From: Clostridiales bacterium
GTDB lineage: Bacteria > Bacillota > Clostridia > Christensenellales > CAG-138
Direction of reading: 5' to 3'
Assembly: GCA_024691085.1 (NCBI GenBank)
Contig: JAILNX010000019.1
Span: forward strand, 46,382-110,381
DNA: 64,000 nucleotides
The notes below the pieces were generated by a model, which had not been told where the DNA came from, did not search any database, and saw only the letters and a program-made list of their open reading frames with translations. A program made the translations under genes and the position numbers. Positions 29,719-38,682 of this stretch are shown here, piece by piece. Within the stretch, counting starts at the first letter, position 1. Every line of letters starts with the position of its first letter.

Positions 29719-29747
29719 TTGACAATTGTTTGTATTGCATTTATAAT
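29719..29747 (+). promoter_or_regulatory. Promoter of the RiPP-like cluster
   Basis: Full-consensus TTGACA (29719-29724), 17 bases, TATAAT (29742-29747), divergent from the GTPase promoter about 60 bases away. Confidence 0.85.
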
Positions 29748-29785
29748 TATCTGGTAAAACTATGTTTAATCTTTTAGGAGGACAT

Positions 29786-29911
29786 ATGAAAAAGTATTCT
29801 AAACCCGAGCTTGACGTTATCGAGATCAATAACGACATTCTCACCGAGAGCAACACCAAGTGCTGCGCCGGTTGGGGCGACACGATCGAGACTCCCGAGG
29901 AAGAAGACTAA
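29786..29911 (+). CDS. RiPP-like precursor peptide 1
   Basis: 41-aa peptide behind TTAGGAGGACAT. It opens MKKYSKPELDVIEIN and continues NDILTES, then carries a short core with adjacent C26-C27, a GWGD motif at 29-32 and an acidic end (EEED). Its leader matches that of the second small gene of the cluster at M1, K2, Y4, K6, P7, D17, L19, S22 and T24. Size, leader likeness, cysteines and the neighbouring radical SAM and PqqD genes mark it as a substrate for modification. Cleavage is probably near residues 20-24 (inference). Confidence 0.8.
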   Translation: MKKYSKPELDVIEINNDILTESNTKCCAGWGDTIETPEEED

Positions 29912-29972
29912 TTCGGTGAATTGACTTAAACGGCAGCCGCCGTTTGGCTTCTCATCGGACAGGGAGGAAACC

Positions 29973-30725
29973 ATGCTGATCGAGATCGCCTCCGTACCCT
30001 TTGAAGCGGTGCTCAGGTACCCGCATACGGAACTGTTCTTCCGCGGGTACGAGACCGACAAGCCGCCTCTTTTTACCGTCGAGCCGACCGAAGCGGACCT
30101 TGTTAAGGTCCAGGCCGACATCGACGCGGCGGCGGTCAGAGGCGGAGAGAAGCCCGTTCGCCGTACTCCCTCTTCGCTGGAGTTCCATGCCGTGCACGCG
30201 CTTCTTGCCCGGAAGCTTATCTCGTACAACGTGCTTCTGATGCACGGCTCAGCCCTTGCGATCGACGGCGAGGCGATCGTCTTCACCGCTAAAAGCGGCA
30301 CAGGCAAGAGCACTCACGCACGCCTGTGGCGGGAAGCGTTTCCCGACCGCGTGCGGATGATCAACGACGACAAGCCCCTCATCCGGATCGAGGACGGGCG
30401 GGCTCTCGTTTACGGCAGTCCGTGGAACGGGAAGCACCATCTGGGCATGAACGCCTGCGCTCCCCTTAAGGCCGTCGTTTTCCTCTCCCGCGGGGAGAAG
30501 AACGCGATCACGCCCGTGAGCAGGGCGGACGCGTTCCCTGCCCTTGTGAAGCAGTGCCTGAGCTCCGTCGATCCCATGACCGCAGGGAAAATACTGGAAC
30601 TTGAAATGAAGCTTCTGAACGAAGCCGCTTTTTTCGGGTTACAGTGCAGCATGTCTCCCGAGGCGGCCCTCGTCGCTTACGAGGGGATAATGAACGAACC
30701 CACGGCCCGTCCGTGCGACAAATGA
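29973..30725 (+). CDS. HprK-like kinase (PEP carboxykinase-like fold) of the RiPP-like cluster
   Basis: 250 aa. Walker A motif AKSGTGKST (106-114) within LLMHGSALAIDGEAIVF, then an acidic NDDKPLI segment and GSPWNGKHH, all typical of HPr kinase-related proteins attached to peptide-modification clusters. Relatives in lasso peptide clusters phosphorylate a serine of the precursor. Here it lies between two precursor genes, both with Ser/Thr near the leader end, so peptide phosphorylation is a reasonable hypothesis. GGGAGGAAACC precedes the ATG. It is too short and lacks the HPr-binding part of true HprK. Confidence 0.82.
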   Translation: MLIEIASVPFEAVLRYPHTELFFRGYETDKPPLFTVEPTEADLVKVQADIDAAAVRGGEKPVRRTPSSLEFHAVHALLARKLISYNVLLMHGSALAIDGEAIVFTAKSGTGKSTHARLWREAFPDRVRMINDDKPLIRIEDGRALVYGSPWNGKHHLGMNACAPLKAVVFLSRGEKNAITPVSRADAFPALVKQCLSSVDPMTAGKILELEMKLLNEAAFFGLQCSMSPEAALVAYEGIMNEPTARPCDK

Positions 30726-30748
30726 ATTGAGAACACGGAGGTACTGTA

Positions 30749-30928
30749 ATGAAAGCTTATGAAAAGCCTTTAATGGAGATCATTCATTTAGAGGGCGACG
30801 TCCTTGCCGATTCGTCGACTCCCGCCTGTAATACTCCCTCTCCCTACGTGACTGCCCCGCCCTGCGACACGCAGACTCCCCCCGTCTGCGTCTGGGGATA
30901 CGACCCGAACCCGATAGTCACCGAGTAA
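30749..30928 (+). CDS. RiPP-like precursor peptide 2
   Basis: 59 aa behind ACGGAGGTACTGTA. The leader MKAYEKPLMEIIHLEGDVLA is like that of precursor 1. The core is rich in Pro and Thr and has three cysteines (C27, C39, C47) with spacings of 12 and 8, then VWGYDPNP. Both precursors share a W-G pair after the last cysteine region, but the cores otherwise differ. It lies directly before the radical SAM enzyme, separated by a strong hairpin. Thioether formation or another radical modification at Cys, Thr or Pro is possible. Confidence 0.82.
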   Translation: MKAYEKPLMEIIHLEGDVLADSSTPACNTPSPYVTAPPCDTQTPPVCVWGYDPNPIVTE

Positions 30929-30979
30929 AAACCGGGGCGGGCTTTACCCTTCAGCCGTACCCACCCAATCAGCTTTCCC

Positions 30980-31015
30980 ATGCGGCTGCGCCGATCCGCG
31001 GCCGCATTTTGTTTT
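30980..31015 (+). terminator. Attenuator between precursor 2 and the maturase
   Basis: ATGCGGCTGCG pairs with CGCGGCCGCAT (one G-T wobble) around CCGATC, followed by TTTTGTTTT. It should end most transcripts after the precursor and let a minority continue, giving excess precursor over enzyme. Confidence 0.75.
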
Positions 31016-31023
31016 CCCCGATC

Positions 31024-32349
31024 ATGAAAGAGATACATCCTGCCGATCCGCTGTTATCGAAACTGCTTCCGAAGGCGAAACCCCTCCCCGGGGTCGTCTG
31101 CGTTCCTTCCCTTTACGCCTACGCCTTCGAGTGCGACGGCGAGAAGTACGTTTTCAACACGCTGACGAAGCAGTGTTTTAAAACGGTGCTGCCCGAGAAA
31201 GCTTCGGCGGGCGAGGGCTTCGACGATCTCATCGGGAACTATTTCCTCGTTCCCGAAGGAAAGGACGAGTGCGCCTTCTACGAATCGATCTCCGCGATGA
31301 TGCGGCTTTACACGAAAAGGAAGGAGCCCCTCGGGTACGTCATACTGCCCACCTTACGCTGCAACGCCCGGTGCGTTTACTGCTACGAGGAGGGCCGTCC
31401 CCAGGACAATATGTCGCGCGAGACCGCGGAAGCTGTGCTCAGATTCATTCTTGACAACCGCGGCAATAAGAAAGTCGGTCTCAACTGGTTCGGAGGCGAG
31501 CCGCTTCTGAGGCAGGATATCATCGACTTCATAAGCACGGGGCTTAAGGACAAAGGCGTCGAGTATTCGTCCGTGATCGTCTCGAACGGCAGCCTCATCA
31601 CCCCCGCGGTCATCGAAAAGATGCTGGGGCTCTGGAGAACGGCAAGGATACAGATCTCCATGGACGGCGCCGAGGCGGACTATATCGCGCGGAAGCGTTA
31701 TTATACCGACGCCGATCAGTACCATACCGTGATAAGGAACATAAGCCTCCTGTCCGAGGCGGGCATTACCGTCTCCTTAAGGATCAACGTGGACGAGGAG
31801 AACTGGCCGCGGGTCCCCGAATACCTCGACGATCTAACGCGTCTGGTCGCTCATAAGGAGAACGTGCTCGTCTATTTCAGCCCGCTTATGGCCGTGCGCG
31901 CGGGCGAGAATGACCTCGATTTCTGGAAGAAGGTCATTTCAGCCGCGCACCTCATCGACGAAGCCGGATTCAGGCCGCTCGCCTACACGGAAGCGGGAAT
32001 GCGGTTCAGAGTCACCCGCTGCATGGCGGACAGCGGCGCCGTGGTCATCACGCCCGACGGCGGCCTTTATCCCTGCGAGCACTGCCCCGAGGGAAGCCGC
32101 TTCGGAGACGTATTTAACGGCGTGACCGACGAAGCCGCAAGGAGAGAGTTCTGCCGTACCGACCGCACGAGGGAGATGTGCAGAAACTGTCCGATGCTCC
32201 CCGACTGCACGAGCCTTGCCTCCTGCCCCTGGGTCGACGCCCACTGCCGCGAGGCGCACGAGATGCTCGCGCTGAACACCTTGAAGCGCATGGTGCGAAG
32301 GGTCGGAAAAGAAGACGAAGCGCCGGACGCGAACGACTATATGTGTTAA
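31024..32349 (+). CDS. Radical SAM/SPASM peptide maturase
   Basis: 441 aa. The N-terminal ~100 residues may be a precursor-recognition region. The radical SAM barrel has C113-x3-C117-x2-C120 (CNARCVYCYE), FGGEPLL and SMDG. The C-terminal SPASM region has GGLYPCEHCPEGSRFGDV and CRNCPMLPDCTSLASCPW, enough cysteines for two auxiliary [4Fe-4S] clusters. Such enzymes form thioether or C-C links in peptides. The ATG chosen has no clear SD; a TTG at 31009 falls in the attenuator tail. Translation may be weak, in line with low enzyme need. PqqD follows after 12 bases. Confidence 0.93.
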   Translation: MKEIHPADPLLSKLLPKAKPLPGVVCVPSLYAYAFECDGEKYVFNTLTKQCFKTVLPEKASAGEGFDDLIGNYFLVPEGKDECAFYESISAMMRLYTKRKEPLGYVILPTLRCNARCVYCYEEGRPQDNMSRETAEAVLRFILDNRGNKKVGLNWFGGEPLLRQDIIDFISTGLKDKGVEYSSVIVSNGSLITPAVIEKMLGLWRTARIQISMDGAEADYIARKRYYTDADQYHTVIRNISLLSEAGITVSLRINVDEENWPRVPEYLDDLTRLVAHKENVLVYFSPLMAVRAGENDLDFWKKVISAAHLIDEAGFRPLAYTEAGMRFRVTRCMADSGAVVITPDGGLYPCEHCPEGSRFGDVFNGVTDEAARREFCRTDRTREMCRNCPMLPDCTSLASCPWVDAHCREAHEMLALNTLKRMVRRVGKEDEAPDANDYMC

Positions 32350-32361
32350 GGAGATTATAAA

Positions 32362-32622
32362 ATGAAGCTGAGATCCGATTTCGTTATTCAGGACGTCGAC
32401 GGCACCGGTTTTCTGGTACCCCTCGGCGGGGAATCGTTCCACGGCATTGTCCGCAGCAATGAGACCGCCGGGTTCATTGTGAACTGCCTTAAGGAGGAGA
32501 CCACCGAGGAGCGGATCGTGGACGCCATGTGCGCCGAGTACGACGCTCCGCGCGAGGTCATCGCGAAGGACGTCAATGAGATACTGAATACCCTCCGCGG
32601 GATAAACGCGCTGGAGGAGTGA
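32362..32622 (+). CDS. PqqD-like RiPP recognition protein
   Basis: 86 aa, a stand-alone RiPP recognition element of the PqqD family: a beta-rich first half (FVIQDVDGTGFLVPLG) and a helical second half (NETAGFIVNCLKEETTEERIVDAM). Such proteins bind the leader peptide and present it to the radical SAM enzyme. TTAAGGAG precedes the ATG. It is the last gene of the cluster before a terminator; no exporter or leader peptidase gene follows. Confidence 0.9.
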   Translation: MKLRSDFVIQDVDGTGFLVPLGGESFHGIVRSNETAGFIVNCLKEETTEERIVDAMCAEYDAPREVIAKDVNEILNTLRGINALEE

Positions 32623-32659
32623 CCGCGTCCGGGGTTCCCCGAACGGAATTATGCATATC

Positions 32660-32687
32660 AAAGCAGAGGAAATACCTCTGCTTTTTT
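32660..32687 (+). terminator. Terminator of the RiPP-like cluster
   Basis: AAAGCAGAGG-AAATA-CCTCTGCTTT followed by T residues. Confidence 0.9.
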
Positions 32688-33156: not shown

Positions 33157-34821
33157 ATGAACAGACTGCGCTTAACGGCACTCGTACTCTTAATAGCTCT
33201 CCTCTTTTCGGGGAACGGCTGCAAAACTTCCTACAAGCAGCCCGTCACGACTCCGGCGCCGACGGAAGCGATCGCGCTGCCGGACGGGGTCACATTCGGC
33301 GAGCACAGCCGCGAGCCCGGGTATTCCGTGTACTTCAAGACCTGCGTTTATGATTCAGAACTCGTCACCGTCGCCGTCGATCTCGATATTTACTCGGAGG
33401 AGGCTTTGTTCAGTCTTGCCGGAGCGATCTCCCGTGACGTCGCGGCGGCCGCGGAACGCCTCGGCGCGGGATCCGCGCATCCAACCATCTATATCGTGGA
33501 CAAGGTCATAACGGGACAACCCCTTGCTGTTGAGAATCACGTGTTCTGCACCGCGCCGGATGTCGAAAGCGGCGAATACCGCGCTGCGCTTATGGGGGCA
33601 TATTACGGTATCCCGATCCCGTGGAAGCAGTACGGCCTCTTCTCATACGTTTTCGGCGAACCGGACGACATAGGGCTTCAATTCTATTATATGAACAGCG
33701 GCAACACGCTGACGAGCTCGTGCGCGGCCCTGTTCCTGTCGCCGCTCTCGGCAGACGCAAAGACGGTCGAGATGGGAAGAAAGACCGCGGCTTCGATCAC
33801 CGCTTTCGTAATGGAAAGAGGCGGGCTGGACGCTCTGCGCGCAATAAAGAGCACGCAGGAGGTGCTGCCCGAGTGGCAGGAGACCATCGGCGTGAAGATG
33901 CCTCTCACCCTTCCGGACGACGACGCGGAGGCCGCCTGCATGACGGTCGAGCGCGATCCCAACGGGCTGTACGCCGTACGCATCGGAAGCACGCTGATCT
34001 GCGTCAAGAAGGACGGCTTCATAAGTTTGCCCGATGAGCTTTACACATTTATCCTTTATTACCTCCGCGGCGTGAAGCTCGTTTTCACGGTGATCCGTCG
34101 GGACGCCCCCGAGTTTTCGGAGCTGGCGGAGACCCGCTTCAACGACAGGATCACGATCAATATCCAGTCGAACAACTCGAGCTTTATGTCGGGCAATACG
34201 ATCCGCCTTACCGATGAGTTCGATATCTGGCACGAGCTCGTGCACGTTCTTCTTGAGCCCGATCGGGAAACAAGATCGTTCAGCTGGCTTTGCGAAGCCA
34301 TAGCTCAGCATTTTTCGCTTTATGCGGAAAGCATCGTCAGCGGGGAGTACGAAAGATCTTGCTTCTCCGATTACGCATCTTGGGCAAGATGGTACGCGCG
34401 GGAAAACGGGATCTCAGGTCAAGCGGCTGAACAGCACATTAAGTTTTTCAGAGGCATTTACGATCTGCTCCGCGCGTCGGATGAGGAAACTCCCGAAGGG
34501 ATCGTCAACTTTCACCTGTTCGACCGCGCATACGGTATCTCGTCCCTGCTCCTGCCCGACGACCCGTTCTTCGACAGGACAAGCGTCGGAGAGGTCAATT
34601 CCGTCGTATTTCGTCCGAAGCACGTCGACGGCAACGGCCTTACCTATGAAGAGGCGCTTGCGATGTTTGACTACCTTATGGACGCCTACGGCGCGGATAA
34701 GGTCATGCAAGGCTATATGAACGCCCGTCCCCTGACCGAGACGTTCGGCAAGGATTACGAGGAGCTTTACGCGGATTTCATGAAGTATCTGAACGATACC
34801 TACGGAGAGTTTCTTAAGTAA
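33157..34821 (+). CDS. HExxH lipoprotein, paralog 1 of 3
   Basis: 554 aa, started at the ATG behind CGGAGG. Signal peptide ALVLLIALLFSGNGC ends in the lipobox; a short Pro/Thr spacer follows. The single recognisable site is H359-ELV-H363 with E380 in CEAIAQHF as likely third ligand, giving HExxH-x16-E. The flanking IWHELVHVL and EAIAQHFSL suggest a gluzincin-like surface peptidase. The C-terminal ~60 residues (GNGLTYEEALAMFDYLMDAYGADKV) are conserved in all three paralogs. Substrate unknown. Confidence 0.75.
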   Translation: MNRLRLTALVLLIALLFSGNGCKTSYKQPVTTPAPTEAIALPDGVTFGEHSREPGYSVYFKTCVYDSELVTVAVDLDIYSEEALFSLAGAISRDVAAAAERLGAGSAHPTIYIVDKVITGQPLAVENHVFCTAPDVESGEYRAALMGAYYGIPIPWKQYGLFSYVFGEPDDIGLQFYYMNSGNTLTSSCAALFLSPLSADAKTVEMGRKTAASITAFVMERGGLDALRAIKSTQEVLPEWQETIGVKMPLTLPDDDAEAACMTVERDPNGLYAVRIGSTLICVKKDGFISLPDELYTFILYYLRGVKLVFTVIRRDAPEFSELAETRFNDRITINIQSNNSSFMSGNTIRLTDEFDIWHELVHVLLEPDRETRSFSWLCEAIAQHFSLYAESIVSGEYERSCFSDYASWARWYARENGISGQAAEQHIKFFRGIYDLLRASDEETPEGIVNFHLFDRAYGISSLLLPDDPFFDRTSVGEVNSVVFRPKHVDGNGLTYEEALAMFDYLMDAYGADKVMQGYMNARPLTETFGKDYEELYADFMKYLNDTYGEFLK

Positions 34822-35060
34822 TGCGCCTCCCGCGAGGCGATCTCACCGCCGAAGGCGATCTCACCTGCGGGCAGATTTCACCGCGAAGCGATTTCACTTT
34901 CGGGTATTAGTGAAATCCATCCTGCGGATGGGTGAAATCCGCCCCTTCGGGATGGGTGAAATCCTCCCGTTGGTCGGGTGAAATCCGTCCTGCGGACGGG
35001 TGAGATCAAAGGCTTCGCCTTTGGTTAACTTCTCACTCCTGACTCCTAACTCTATAAAGG
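34822..35060. repeat. Inverting hairpin-word array, GATTTCAC / GTGAAATC type, then 7-bp repeats
   Basis: Four GATYTCAC words (34839, 34857, 34874, 34890) are followed by five GTGARATC words (34910, 34932, 34956, 34978, 35000), the second being the reverse complement of the first. Between them are different mini-hairpins, for example CATCC-TGC-GGATG and CGTCC-TGC-GGACG. A 7-base-period CACTCCT/GACTCCT/AACTCTA run ends it at about 35055. Confidence 0.85.
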
Positions 35061-35068
35061 AGGAACAA

Positions 35069-36781
35069 ATGAAAAGATTTCGCGTTCTTGCACTCGTACT
35101 CTTAATAGCTCTCCTCTTTTCGGGGAACGGCTGCGGGATAATACCCGCGCTCATAAAGCCGACCGCGGCTCCGACAGAGACCGCGGCGCCGACGCCGGCT
35201 CCCACGGCTAAGCCCGCCCCGACGCCCGAACCCACCGAGGCGCCGGAGATCACCTCGGGCGTGCACAAGGGCGAGCGCGATTACTTTACCTATTTCGTGA
35301 CCCGCGTGATCGAGAAGGAGCGCTGCTCCGTCCAGATGGATTACAAGATCTTCTCGGCCGAGGCGCTGATAAGCCTTGCGGATACCGTCGACCGGGACAT
35401 GGCGGCAATTGCGGAACGGGCGGGCGAACCCGACCGGCGCGTAACGGTCTACATCGTGGACAAGCTCGAGTCCGGCGCGTCGCCCGTGTCCGGCGATCAC
35501 ATGTTCTGCACGCCTGAAGAGGTGGAAAGCGGCGAATACCGCACGGCGCTCATGGACGCCTGTTTCGGGCTTACGATCCCGTGGAAGCAGTACGGCCTTT
35601 ATGAGTTCGTATTCGGCGATCACGACTATTCGGGACTGCAGCGCTATTATCTGGACAAGCGCAACATGTATACCGCGTCCTGCGCGGCGGTTTATATTTC
35701 TCCGCTCTCGGCAGACGCAAAGACGCTCGAGATGGGGCGGAAGACCGCGGCGTCGATCACCGCTTACGTCCTTAATAACGGCGGCCTCGAAAGGCTCCGG
35801 GAGATCAGGAGCACGAAGGAGGTCATCTCCGACTGGATGAAGACCGAGGACGTGTTCTCATCGTTCATACTGCCCGAAGAGGATGAGGAGGTCGCCGGCA
35901 TGACGGTGCTGAAAGATGCGGGCTGCCTTTTTGCCGTGCGCCTTGACAACCTCGTGTTCCGCATAACCGAAAGCTCGTTCATGAAGACCCCCGCGGAGCT
36001 TTACACCTTCCTCGTAATGTACGTCCGCGGCATGAAGGCCGTCTGGAAGACGATAGAGGACGAGGCTCCCGCGTTCGTACCCTATGCCGAAACGCGCGCC
36101 GGGGCGACGATCACCATCACCGTCACCACCGCCGACGAAAGCTACACCTACGGCAACAACATCGTACTCGGCTTCGAGGAGTCCATATGGCACGAGCTGA
36201 CGCACGTTCTGATGAACGAGAGCGAGTACGACCCCGTATTCTGGTGGCAGTGCGAGGCGATCGCCGAGCATTTCTCGCTTCCGTCCTGGGACGCGGTCTG
36301 GCGCGTAAGCGAGGAGGAATACATTTCGGGCTTCGCGGCTTTGATCAGATCGTACGCGTTGGGATCCGCCATAAGCTCCGAAGAGGCCGAAAAGTGCATA
36401 TCGCTCTTCACGGCGGTCTACTATTCGCTCCGAGCGGAGCACGGTTCGGCTCCCGAGGGGTATCTCGATCACAGGCTGACAGAGCGCGCCCTGGGCATCT
36501 GCGCCCTGCTTCTGCCCGACAGCGACATTTTCGACCGCAGATCGGTCGCGTCTACGCGCGGCTCCGAGTCCGGCCCCATAGAGACCGACGGCAACGCTCT
36601 GACGTACAACGAATCGATGGCCTTCTTCGAGTACCTGATGGATACCTACGGCGCCGAGACGGTGCTCCGCGGATATATGTACGCCAAGCCCATTGAGGAG
36701 ACCTGCGGGAAGACCTACGATAAGCTGTTCGCGGACTTCATGAGGCATCTTAAAAATATGTACGGCTCCTATCTAAGGTAA
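35069..36781 (+). CDS. HExxH lipoprotein, paralog 2 of 3
   Basis: 570 aa, ATG behind AAAGGAGGAAC. The signal peptide is nearly identical to that of paralog 1, with lipobox GNGC, followed by GIIPALIKPT and a longer APTP-rich linker (to about residue 60). Zinc motif H375-ELT-H379 with E396 (CEAIAEHFS) at the same spacing as its paralogs. The sequences between the signal and the zinc site align in order with paralog 1 (FCT-EVESGEYR-ALM and IPWKQYGLY), so this is a tandem duplication. Activity is inferred only from the motif. Confidence 0.75.
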   Translation: MKRFRVLALVLLIALLFSGNGCGIIPALIKPTAAPTETAAPTPAPTAKPAPTPEPTEAPEITSGVHKGERDYFTYFVTRVIEKERCSVQMDYKIFSAEALISLADTVDRDMAAIAERAGEPDRRVTVYIVDKLESGASPVSGDHMFCTPEEVESGEYRTALMDACFGLTIPWKQYGLYEFVFGDHDYSGLQRYYLDKRNMYTASCAAVYISPLSADAKTLEMGRKTAASITAYVLNNGGLERLREIRSTKEVISDWMKTEDVFSSFILPEEDEEVAGMTVLKDAGCLFAVRLDNLVFRITESSFMKTPAELYTFLVMYVRGMKAVWKTIEDEAPAFVPYAETRAGATITITVTTADESYTYGNNIVLGFEESIWHELTHVLMNESEYDPVFWWQCEAIAEHFSLPSWDAVWRVSEEEYISGFAALIRSYALGSAISSEEAEKCISLFTAVYYSLRAEHGSAPEGYLDHRLTERALGICALLLPDSDIFDRRSVASTRGSESGPIETDGNALTYNESMAFFEYLMDTYGAETVLRGYMYAKPIEETCGKTYDKLFADFMRHLKNMYGSYLR

Positions 36782-36787
36782 CGCTTC

Positions 36788-36816
36788 TGCCTAATCCCTA
36801 ATACCTAATCCCTAAA
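36788..36816 (+). repeat. 7-bp degenerate tandem repeat
   Basis: CTAATCC, CTAATAC, CTAATCC, CTAAAGG at a 7-base period, the reverse-complement form of the TTAGG-type units at 33.05 kb. Confidence 0.7.
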
Positions 36817-36817
36817 G

Positions 36818-36839
36818 GCCCTCCGCTGAGGGCTTTTTT
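36818..36839 (+). terminator. Terminator after paralog 2
   Basis: GCCCTC-CGCT-GAGGGC followed by TTTTTT. Confidence 0.8.
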
Positions 36840-36842
36840 CAC

Positions 36843-36908
36843 TTTACAAAACCTTTACACGATCCTTACCCGCTCTTGATTGACCGGGGCGGGAGTTCAT
36901 AGTATAAT
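36843..36908 (+). promoter_or_regulatory. Promoter with Pho-box-like 11-bp direct repeats (paralog 3)
   Basis: TTTACA at 36843 and 36854, CTTACC at 36865 and TTGATT at 36876 lie exactly 11 bases apart, then TTGACC (36880-36885), 17 bases, TATAAT (36903-36908). Bacillus PhoP binds TT(A/T/C)ACA repeats spaced this way. The leader has a CGCTC-AGGA-GAGCG hairpin. A close copy lies before the SPFH gene. Confidence 0.75.
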
Positions 36909-36969
36909 CTTGCCGCGCTCAGGAGAGCGAACGAGCCATCCACCCACAAGGACAAAAGGAGAAACGACC

Positions 36970-38682
36970 ATGAAAAGACTGCGCTTAACGGCGCTCGTAC
37001 TCTTAATAGTTTTCCTCTTTTCGGGGAACGGCTGCGGGATAATACCCGCGCTCATAAAGCCGACCGCGGCGCCCACCGAGACCGCGGCGGCCACTCCCGC
37101 GCCGACGGAGACGCCCGCTCCCACGCCGGAACCCACCGAGGCGCCGGAGATCACCTCGGGCGAGCACAAGCGCGAGTCCGGATACTACGCGTTTTTCAAG
37201 ACCCGCGAGCTTGTTTCCGATCGGTTTACTGCCGCCATGGAGGACGGCATATTCAAGGCCGAGGACATATTCCGTATCGCCTCCGCGATCGGCACGGATA
37301 TTGACAGGATCGTCGAGACCTTTCAAGAGCCCGTCGGACACGTAACGGTCTACGTTGTAAAGACCCTGCGTTCGGGCGGGCCGATTTCCGTTGAGGACCG
37401 CGTGTTCTGCACCATGGCGGACGTTGAGAGCGGCGATTACCGCGCGGCGCTTATCGGCGCTTGCCTCGGTGTGACTCACCCGTGGAAGCAGTACGGCCTG
37501 TCCGTTATGGCGTTCGGCTCTCTCGACGAGTCCGGGCTCAAGTCCTACTACGGCTGGAAAACCAACATGCTCACCGCTTCCTTGGCTCCGGTGTTCCTGT
37601 CCCCTCTGTCTTCCAAAGGCAGAACGCTTGAAATGGCAAGGAATACCGCGGCCTCGATCACGGCTTTCGTAATGGAAAGAGGCGGCCTTGCAAAGCTCCG
37701 CGCGATCGAAAGCACCAAGGAAGTGCTGCCCGAATGGCAGGAGCATCTCGGTATCTCCTCCGTCATCGAGCTTCCCGAGAAGGACATCGAAGCTGCAAAG
37801 ATGGGTATCGAGGCGGATCTTAACGCGCTCTTCATCGTCACTTTGGGCAACATAAAGGTCACCGTGGCCGAGAACGCCTACATCTCCTCCCCCGCCGAGA
37901 TATACGAGTTCGTCTGTCAGTTTTACCTCGGCATGGAAAAGGTGCTGGAGACCATCCTCATCGACGATCCCGCGCATTACGACAGGGCCAATACCAAATT
38001 CACCGAGGAGAAGATCGATATCAAGCTCATCGCCGTTACCGCGGGCAAGAGCACGGCCTCAAGCACGAACCACATAGTGCTCTGCGTGACGAGCTCCGTC
38101 TGGCACGAGATGACGCACATACTGTACAAACACGTGACCTTCAAGCAAAACTCAGCGTGGGTCGACGAAGCCATAGCCCAGCACTTCTCGATGTCGGCCA
38201 ATGACGCCGTCTCGCCCTACGATGAGGAGAGCACATTAGAGGAGCATAGGCAGTGGATGCTCGCGACATACGGCTCATCGTTCCCGGAGGTCCTGACTTT
38301 CCTTGATCTTTTCGAGGCCGTGTATCGGGATCTGCGTCCCGCCGACCGCGTTACTCCCGAGGGCAAGATAAGCGAGCGCACATGGAGAAAGACGAATGCG
38401 ATCGCCTCGCTGCTTCTTCCCGACGCGCCGTTCCTTTCGGCTTATGTATCCGTTGCAGAAGTCCGCGGCGTGTCCGCAGGGCACAAGTCCAAGGACGGCA
38501 ACGGGCTTTCATACGAAGAGGCGCTGGCTTTCTTCGATTATCTTATCGATACCTACGGCGCCGAGACCGTCATGAACGGGTACGACCGGCCCATAGCCGA
38601 CGTCTGCGGCAAGCCCTACGAGGAGCTTTACCGCGAGTTCGTCGGTTATCTTAAGAACAGGTACGCGGAGTATCTCCACTGA
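36970..38682 (+). CDS. HExxH lipoprotein, paralog 3 of 3
   Basis: 570 aa, ATG behind AAAAGGAG. Same signal peptide and GIIPALIKPT start as paralog 2, with a threonine/proline linker. Zinc motif H379-EMT-H383 and E400 in DEAIAQHFS. Unlike its sisters it has its own strong promoter with Pho-box-like repeats, so it may be expressed under different conditions. The C-terminal block GNGLSYEEALAFFDYLIDTYGA is shared by all three. Function unknown. Confidence 0.75.
   Translation: MKRLRLTALVLLIVFLFSGNGCGIIPALIKPTAAPTETAAATPAPTETPAPTPEPTEAPEITSGEHKRESGYYAFFKTRELVSDRFTAAMEDGIFKAEDIFRIASAIGTDIDRIVETFQEPVGHVTVYVVKTLRSGGPISVEDRVFCTMADVESGDYRAALIGACLGVTHPWKQYGLSVMAFGSLDESGLKSYYGWKTNMLTASLAPVFLSPLSSKGRTLEMARNTAASITAFVMERGGLAKLRAIESTKEVLPEWQEHLGISSVIELPEKDIEAAKMGIEADLNALFIVTLGNIKVTVAENAYISSPAEIYEFVCQFYLGMEKVLETILIDDPAHYDRANTKFTEEKIDIKLIAVTAGKSTASSTNHIVLCVTSSVWHEMTHILYKHVTFKQNSAWVDEAIAQHFSMSANDAVSPYDEESTLEEHRQWMLATYGSSFPEVLTFLDLFEAVYRDLRPADRVTPEGKISERTWRKTNAIASLLLPDAPFLSAYVSVAEVRGVSAGHKSKDGNGLSYEEALAFFDYLIDTYGAETVMNGYDRPIADVCGKPYEELYREFVGYLKNRYAEYLH

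Follow-up and report, generated by a model that had tools for sequence, protein, structure and literature searches.

A probable RiPP gene cluster pairing a radical SAM/SPASM enzyme with an HprK-like kinase and two unlike precursors in a Clostridiales genome

Gene content of the locus

The window analyzed here, a 64,000-nucleotide stretch from a Clostridiales bacterium, spans bases 46382-110381 of contig C32 in a draft genome of 1.98 Mb (38 contigs, 94.3% complete, 4.4% contamination). It contains a compact cassette encoding two small precursor-like peptides, a P-loop kinase, a radical S-adenosylmethionine (SAM) enzyme with a SPASM domain, and a discrete PqqD-like protein of the type known as a RiPP recognition element (RRE). 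With the chemistry proposed below included, this locus is probably a gene cluster for ribosomally synthesized and post-translationally modified peptides (RiPPs). The cassette lies on the plus strand between a minus-strand EF-G-like/NYN gene and a YhbY gene, with the following features.

29719-29747, plus strand: promoter-like TTGACA-17-TATAAT (12/12 consensus matches, 17-nt spacer)
29786-29908, plus strand: precursor A, 41 aa, MKKYSKPELDVIEINNDILTESNTKCCAGWGDTIETPEEED (leader pattern; type-A relatives in L048, L081, L082)
29973-30722, plus strand: P-loop kinase, HprK/PEPCK fold, 250 aa (weak NCBIfam matches, invariant motifs, Foldseek)
30749-30925, plus strand: precursor B, 59 aa, core containing ...CDTQTPPVCVWGYDPNPIVTE (leader pattern; type-B relatives in L048, L080, L081, L082)
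30980-31007, plus strand: 11-bp hairpin ahead of a T-rich stretch (folding; comparable hairpins in some relatives)
31024-32346, plus strand: radical SAM/SPASM maturase, 441 aa (Pfam Radical_SAM and SPASM, conserved cysteines)
32362-32619, plus strand: discrete PqqD-like RRE, 86 aa (Pfam PqqD, PF05402)
32660-32684, plus strand: terminator hairpin at the cassette end (folding energy and T-run)

Precursor peptides

The original prediction for this DNA, made from the sequence alone, described two small genes of 41 and 59 aa with a common leader pattern. Both are present, each with a GGAGG-type ribosome-binding site, and they share the leader M-K-x-Y-x-K-P, followed by D-x-L and S-x-T, ahead of differing cysteine cores. 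In relatives, the gene ahead of the radical SAM gene likewise begins M-x-x-Y-x-K-P-x-[ML]-E-[VI]-[VI]. This pattern was followed through 79 loci (888 kb), comprising the window, a second locus of the same genome on contig C19 (L045), and 77 loci from a contig scan (best 80 of 373). The strict leader occurs in 51 of 2513 small open reading frames (ORFs) with a ribosome-binding-like site, and 45 of the 51 lie on the same strand within 2.5 kb of a radical SAM gene (26% expected by base share; p 3e-20), although three of these (L101, L141, L148) look accidental by eye. The small genes do, therefore, co-occur with the maturase, the point on which the original prediction had staked itself. The YxKPx[ML] leader beside a radical SAM gene may also serve as a marker for precursor genes that annotation tends to miss.

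When 42 precursors are aligned on the leader Tyr (position 1), Pro occupies position 4 in 40, Met/Leu/Ile/Val/Phe position 6 in all 42, and Glu/Asp position 7 in 40. Type A sequences end in I-x-LPE or similar, and type B is defined by C-x-x-x-x-P-x-C-x-[WI]-G. The window and three further genomes (L048, L081, L082) each carry this unlike pair next to one another, which argues that having two unlike precursors is inherited; elsewhere a locus contains a single precursor, a different pair, or three alike (L096).

Among 44 distinct precursors, Thr is found three residues before Cys in 22 (8.0 expected; z 5.4) and Ser directly before Cys in 21 (10.3 expected; z 3.8), yielding a T-x-S-C junction. 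A single thioether rule, Cys-X2-Asp/Glu, is enriched across precursors yet missing from both window cores and was rejected. PapB is reported to accept Cys-Xn-Asp with n of 0-6 (PMC9413430). A PapB-like rule of this kind would allow C-AGWG-D in precursor A and C-D or C-VWGY-D in precursor B, but the cores with one Cys or no Cys that occur among relatives speak otherwise. In a separate arrangement, four radical SAM genes of the family stand in a row at L062:6899-13168. The three leaders found there are almost the same, M[EK]KY[FL]TPE[MI]D[VI]ESLANDVVTAS, and neither a kinase nor a PqqD gene lies nearby.

Kinase, maturase, and RRE

The predicted kinase with a Walker A motif between the precursors is confirmed at its place, carrying FTAKSGTGKST, and residues H91, T110-T114, and D133 are invariant in 17/17 sequences. 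No Pfam model matches it above cut-off (Hpr_kinase_C 13.4 vs 33.3 bits), NCBIfam matches are weak, and assignment as an HPr(Ser) kinase was rejected at 13.6 bits against an NCBIfam cut-off of 240. The top Foldseek match is HprK/P (E 2.7e-6, 110 columns); a second Foldseek look gave no HprK/P among the 50 matches listed, with PEPCK rows present. PEPCK and HprK/P belong to the same superfamily. Comparison of the kinase profile with PDB sequences returned weak matches only, the best to a designed protein (E 0.0013) and the next to PEPCK (0.015).

The radical SAM/SPASM enzyme and the PqqD-like protein, both foreseen, score above their Pfam cut-offs: Radical_SAM at 59.4 bits (cut-off 29.5), SPASM barely at 22.2 (cut-off 21.5), and PF05402 at 57 (cut-off 23.4). 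The CxxxCxxC motif (C113, C117, C120) and the SPASM cysteines (C333, C351, C386, C389, C395, C401, C408) are invariant in 29/29 sequences, and the active-site motifs of the cassette enzymes are intact. Membership in a named maturase family was rejected in each case tried: TIGR04463 radical SAM/SPASM RiPP maturase, the best NCBIfam match, at 144.6 bits (cut-off 525), SCIFF (TIGR03974) at 56 (425), PapB (NF047865) at 95.6 (340), and FlmE/OhkG at 90.6 (500). The PqqD profile finds one match in the PDB, TbiB1 of lasso biosynthesis (E 1.8e-4).

Conservation and linkage

The cassette is common to relatives, mostly Clostridia-type metagenome-assembled genomes; among cultured strains, Ruminococcus flavefaciens YL228 (L141) has it with the kinase linked. 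Among 151 related genomes, with presence set at E 1e-40 for the radical SAM enzyme and E 1e-20 for the kinase, the former occurs in 23 and the latter in 20 of these 23 vs 33 of the 128 radical SAM-negative genomes (p 4e-8, uncorrected for kinship). All 20 genomes in which radical SAM and PqqD genes are neighbors hold the kinase; the three radical SAM genomes without a neighboring PqqD gene (G017, G035 on a 3.2-kb contig, and G052) have no kinase.

In a tree of 78 radical SAM sequences, the window enzyme belongs to a clade of 43 (support 100/98), of which, with cut contigs scored as lacking genes, 21 rows have a linked kinase, 19 an RRE without a linked kinase, and 3 neither. The earlier proposal of one maturation system for the two precursors is supported. 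Kinase linkage changes at least 15 times on the tree, indicating that the gene has entered and left this locus repeatedly, a behavior to be anticipated for a part able to work in trans; G013, G059, G069, G076, G080, and G083 have a radical SAM locus without a kinase and a kinase elsewhere in the genome. The downstream gene YhbY was matched in 1/13 genomes at E 1e-10, and a same-genus empty-site comparison was therefore set aside.

A second association of kinase and radical SAM genes is seen at L075:5920-8383 and L079:4828-7222. Here a radical SAM enzyme of another kind (CxxxCxMCYVH region) is encoded in a row with an HprK-like kinase and PqqD, and no precursor was recognized. Elsewhere in the window, positions 33157-38682 encode a tandem array of three paralogs resembling lipoproteins (554, 570, and 570 aa; HExxH motifs HELVH, HELTH, and HEMTH) with weak Peptidase_MA_2 matches, a family not seen at the other loci compared.

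Parts spread over several loci

The window cassette contains neither a signal-peptidase-like gene nor an exporter. The genome, however, has both. A locus on contig C19 has the order kinase-precursor-radical SAM-RRE-peptidase, and another on contig C16 (L046:6811-10088) the order kinase-RRE-peptidase-ATP-binding cassette (ABC) exporter, with no radical SAM gene and no precursor matching the strict leader pattern; these two other kinase loci thus total two signal-peptidase-like genes and one ABC exporter. The original suggestion that the product may stay inside the cell, for lack of a transporter or protease, holds for the cassette itself and not for the genome, and the product need not stay inside. 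The C16 locus is possibly an LPP-like locus (see below) or a shared export hub. This division of parts over three loci makes a case for RiPP parts common to several loci.

Similar neighbors recur among relatives. At 50 loci flanked by 3 kb in each direction, a search within 5 kb on the same strand found an RRE gene beside the radical SAM gene in 33, a kinase in 17 (always together with an RRE), a signal-peptidase-like gene in 17, and an ABC exporter in 5. The peptidase-like proteins have an SMRPM-type Ser motif, and those scanned (C16, L069, L071) match archaeal-type signal peptidase and SipW NCBIfam models below cut-off. At seven further kinase loci of radical SAM-positive genomes (L066-L072), an ABC gene stands beside the kinase in 6/7 and a peptidase gene in 3/7; seven kinase loci from genomes with a linked kinase (L073-L079) have mixed surroundings. 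The sole NTP_transf_5 gene of the genome (PF14907, LppN family; C21:49714-50433, L157) is unlinked: the surrounding 3.7 kb showed neither a kinase nor an RRE. Kinases also occur beside very large secreted proteins of 974 to 1665 aa (L066, L068, L076, L077, L078), that of L066 having Listeria-Bacteroides repeats and L076 also an NTP_transf_5 gene.

Expression signals

The cassette was originally described as lying between one promoter and one terminator. Both are borne out: the terminal hairpin at 32660-32684, which a pattern scan for terminators had not listed, folds at -14.8 kcal/mol (z -4.57) ahead of a T-run, and the promoter-like site is one of 8 in 8 kb, where 2.7 are expected. The description is too simple, however, because it overlooks a further hairpin (30980-31007; -20.4 kcal/mol, z -3.85) that is followed by a T-rich stretch and parts precursor B from the radical SAM gene; the whole 87-nt gap folds with a z of just -1.32. 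This hairpin is probably an attenuator between precursors and maturase, which would hold precursor in excess over the radical SAM enzyme. Of 25 precursor-radical SAM gaps compared, the 15 of 55-250 nt were fold-tested (L083 and L085 being near-copies); 13 gave z < -2, and 10 contain a hairpin with at least 9 pairs. The short gaps outside the fold test, eight of them of up to 51 nt (e.g. L081, L082, L087), have no long hairpin; the putative attenuator is thus frequent and not universal. The radical SAM start (31009-31024) has no clear Shine-Dalgarno sequence, as in several relatives; the precursor genes differ in this respect.

Proposed pathway and alternatives

The explanation we favor, and consider likely, combines RRE-guided radical cross-linking with phosphorylation of a Ser close to where leader meets core; cleavage and export would take place in trans. 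The PqqD-like RRE would bind the YxKPx[ML] leader, which the two precursors have in common, and deliver the peptides to two tailoring enzymes. Of these, the SPASM enzyme would introduce radical cross-links in the unlike cores, with Cys thioethers (a loss of 2 Da each) as the likeliest bond. The HprK-like kinase would attach at least one phosphate, for which the likeliest site is Ser at the junction (counting leader Tyr as 1, residue 19 in A and residue 19 or 20 in B), placing radical thioether formation downstream of the phosphorylated junction. A signal-peptidase-like protein (C19 or C16 locus) would then cut, and the ABC exporter (C16) export, in trans.

In a variant that is conceivable, if doubtful, the junction phosphate acts as a checkpoint that licenses leader removal, and the cross-link is what matters in the product. 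The frequent grouping of kinase, peptidase, and ABC genes fits this variant, as do the enriched Thr and Ser before Cys (z 5.4 and 3.8) and the report that the unphosphorylated precursor of linear polyphosphorylated peptides (LPP) is cleaved poorly; in that same system, however, the core still bears its phosphates after release (PMC13381572).

Rather unlikely is a plain radical SAM RiPP cluster, in which modification of the precursors falls to the radical SAM enzyme and RRE, and the kinase has a different target, for example another RiPP of the genome. Several observations weigh on its side and against the favored pathway: the 19/43 clade rows with an RRE and no linked kinase, the kinase in 33/128 radical SAM-negative genomes, including 11/12 of the same genus (0/12 of which hold the radical SAM gene, speaking against an exclusive association), and the C16 locus, where kinase, RRE, peptidase, and ABC genes do without a radical SAM gene. 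Against it, the kinase gene sits between the two precursor genes, is linked in 21/43 clade rows, and is held by 20/20 genomes with the radical SAM-PqqD pair.

A remnant of a paeninodin-like lasso cluster is very improbable. A YxxP-type leader, a discrete RRE, and an HprK kinase are common to such clusters (PMC13381572; PMC7533575), but a search of the 94%-complete genome for the lasso B2 peptidase PF13471 at E 0.001 gave nothing (control positive in 2/14), on which ground the reading was rejected, and a radical SAM gene at this place is the rule in relatives. Least credible of all is that the small ORFs arose by chance and are not genes: 2513 such frames were counted in the 79 loci, but the crowding of 45/51 strict-leader frames beside the radical SAM gene and the recurring A/B pair contradict this, as does conservation.

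Comparison with known systems

The SynChlorMet cassette brings together an HprK-related ScmC, a PqqD-like ScmD, and SPASM enzymes. As ScmC the window kinase was rejected, at 20.8 bits against a cut-off of 125. Relative to thioether-forming (ranthipeptide) SPASM maturases such as CteB and PapB, the window enzyme falls far below NCBIfam cut-offs; those systems have other precursors, whereas the window has a separate RRE and a kinase. Paeninodin-type phosphorylated lasso peptides share the RRE, HprK-like kinase, and a similar leader with the window, but not the radical SAM gene of its cassette, and their peptidase family was not found in the genome. HPr kinase has been discussed in the context of lasso clusters (PMC4289311), and RRE-Finder drew attention to discrete lasso-like RREs alongside radical SAM enzymes (PMC7470986).

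The original prediction took lasso phosphorylation as the parallel for the kinase; LPP, as described in the main text of its report (PMC13381572), is nearer and is the closest described system. In this line, known from Bacilli (2026), the RRE LppB presents the precursor, HprK-like LppK adds several phosphates to core Ser3, SpI-like LppS cleaves behind Thr-1, and export runs through the LppD pump; HprK-RRE-peptidase lines are described in that report. Likenesses include the discrete RRE (PF05402) with an HprK-like kinase and YxxP leader, and one to three precursors; a signal-peptidase-like protein and ABC exporter join the list once relatives and further loci of this genome are considered. The LPP consensus leader, YxxPxVLxHQxIxFETxxS, agrees with the window in YxxP and Tyr-to-Ser spacing, its Ser being residue 19 from the leader Tyr, as are S19 of precursor A and S19 of B (which also has S20); HQ and FE do not agree. 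The window cassette differs in having no peptidase, exporter, or NTP transferase and in having a radical enzyme, a word ('radical') absent from the LPP main text.

A joint kinase and radical SAM line with precursors and a common leader was not found described in searches of the open-access literature. Tentatively, the cassette may represent a new class of RiPPs from gut Clostridia. A single RRE-guided pathway would equip each precursor molecule with both a radical cross-link and a (poly)phosphate, the junction phosphate would license cleavage and export, and the cross-linking and kinase-peptidase-exporter modules, which can lie at separate loci, would serve several precursors. If so, the phosphate-adding line of Bacilli, as its report presents it, has a gut counterpart with a built-in SPASM enzyme, and one peptide bears two chemistries not found reported together in that literature. 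With the same kinase family beside a different core chemistry, near the same junction, the role of HprK-like RiPP kinases becomes a testable question. The radical and kinase chemistries are each known already; the joint line is what appears to be new here.
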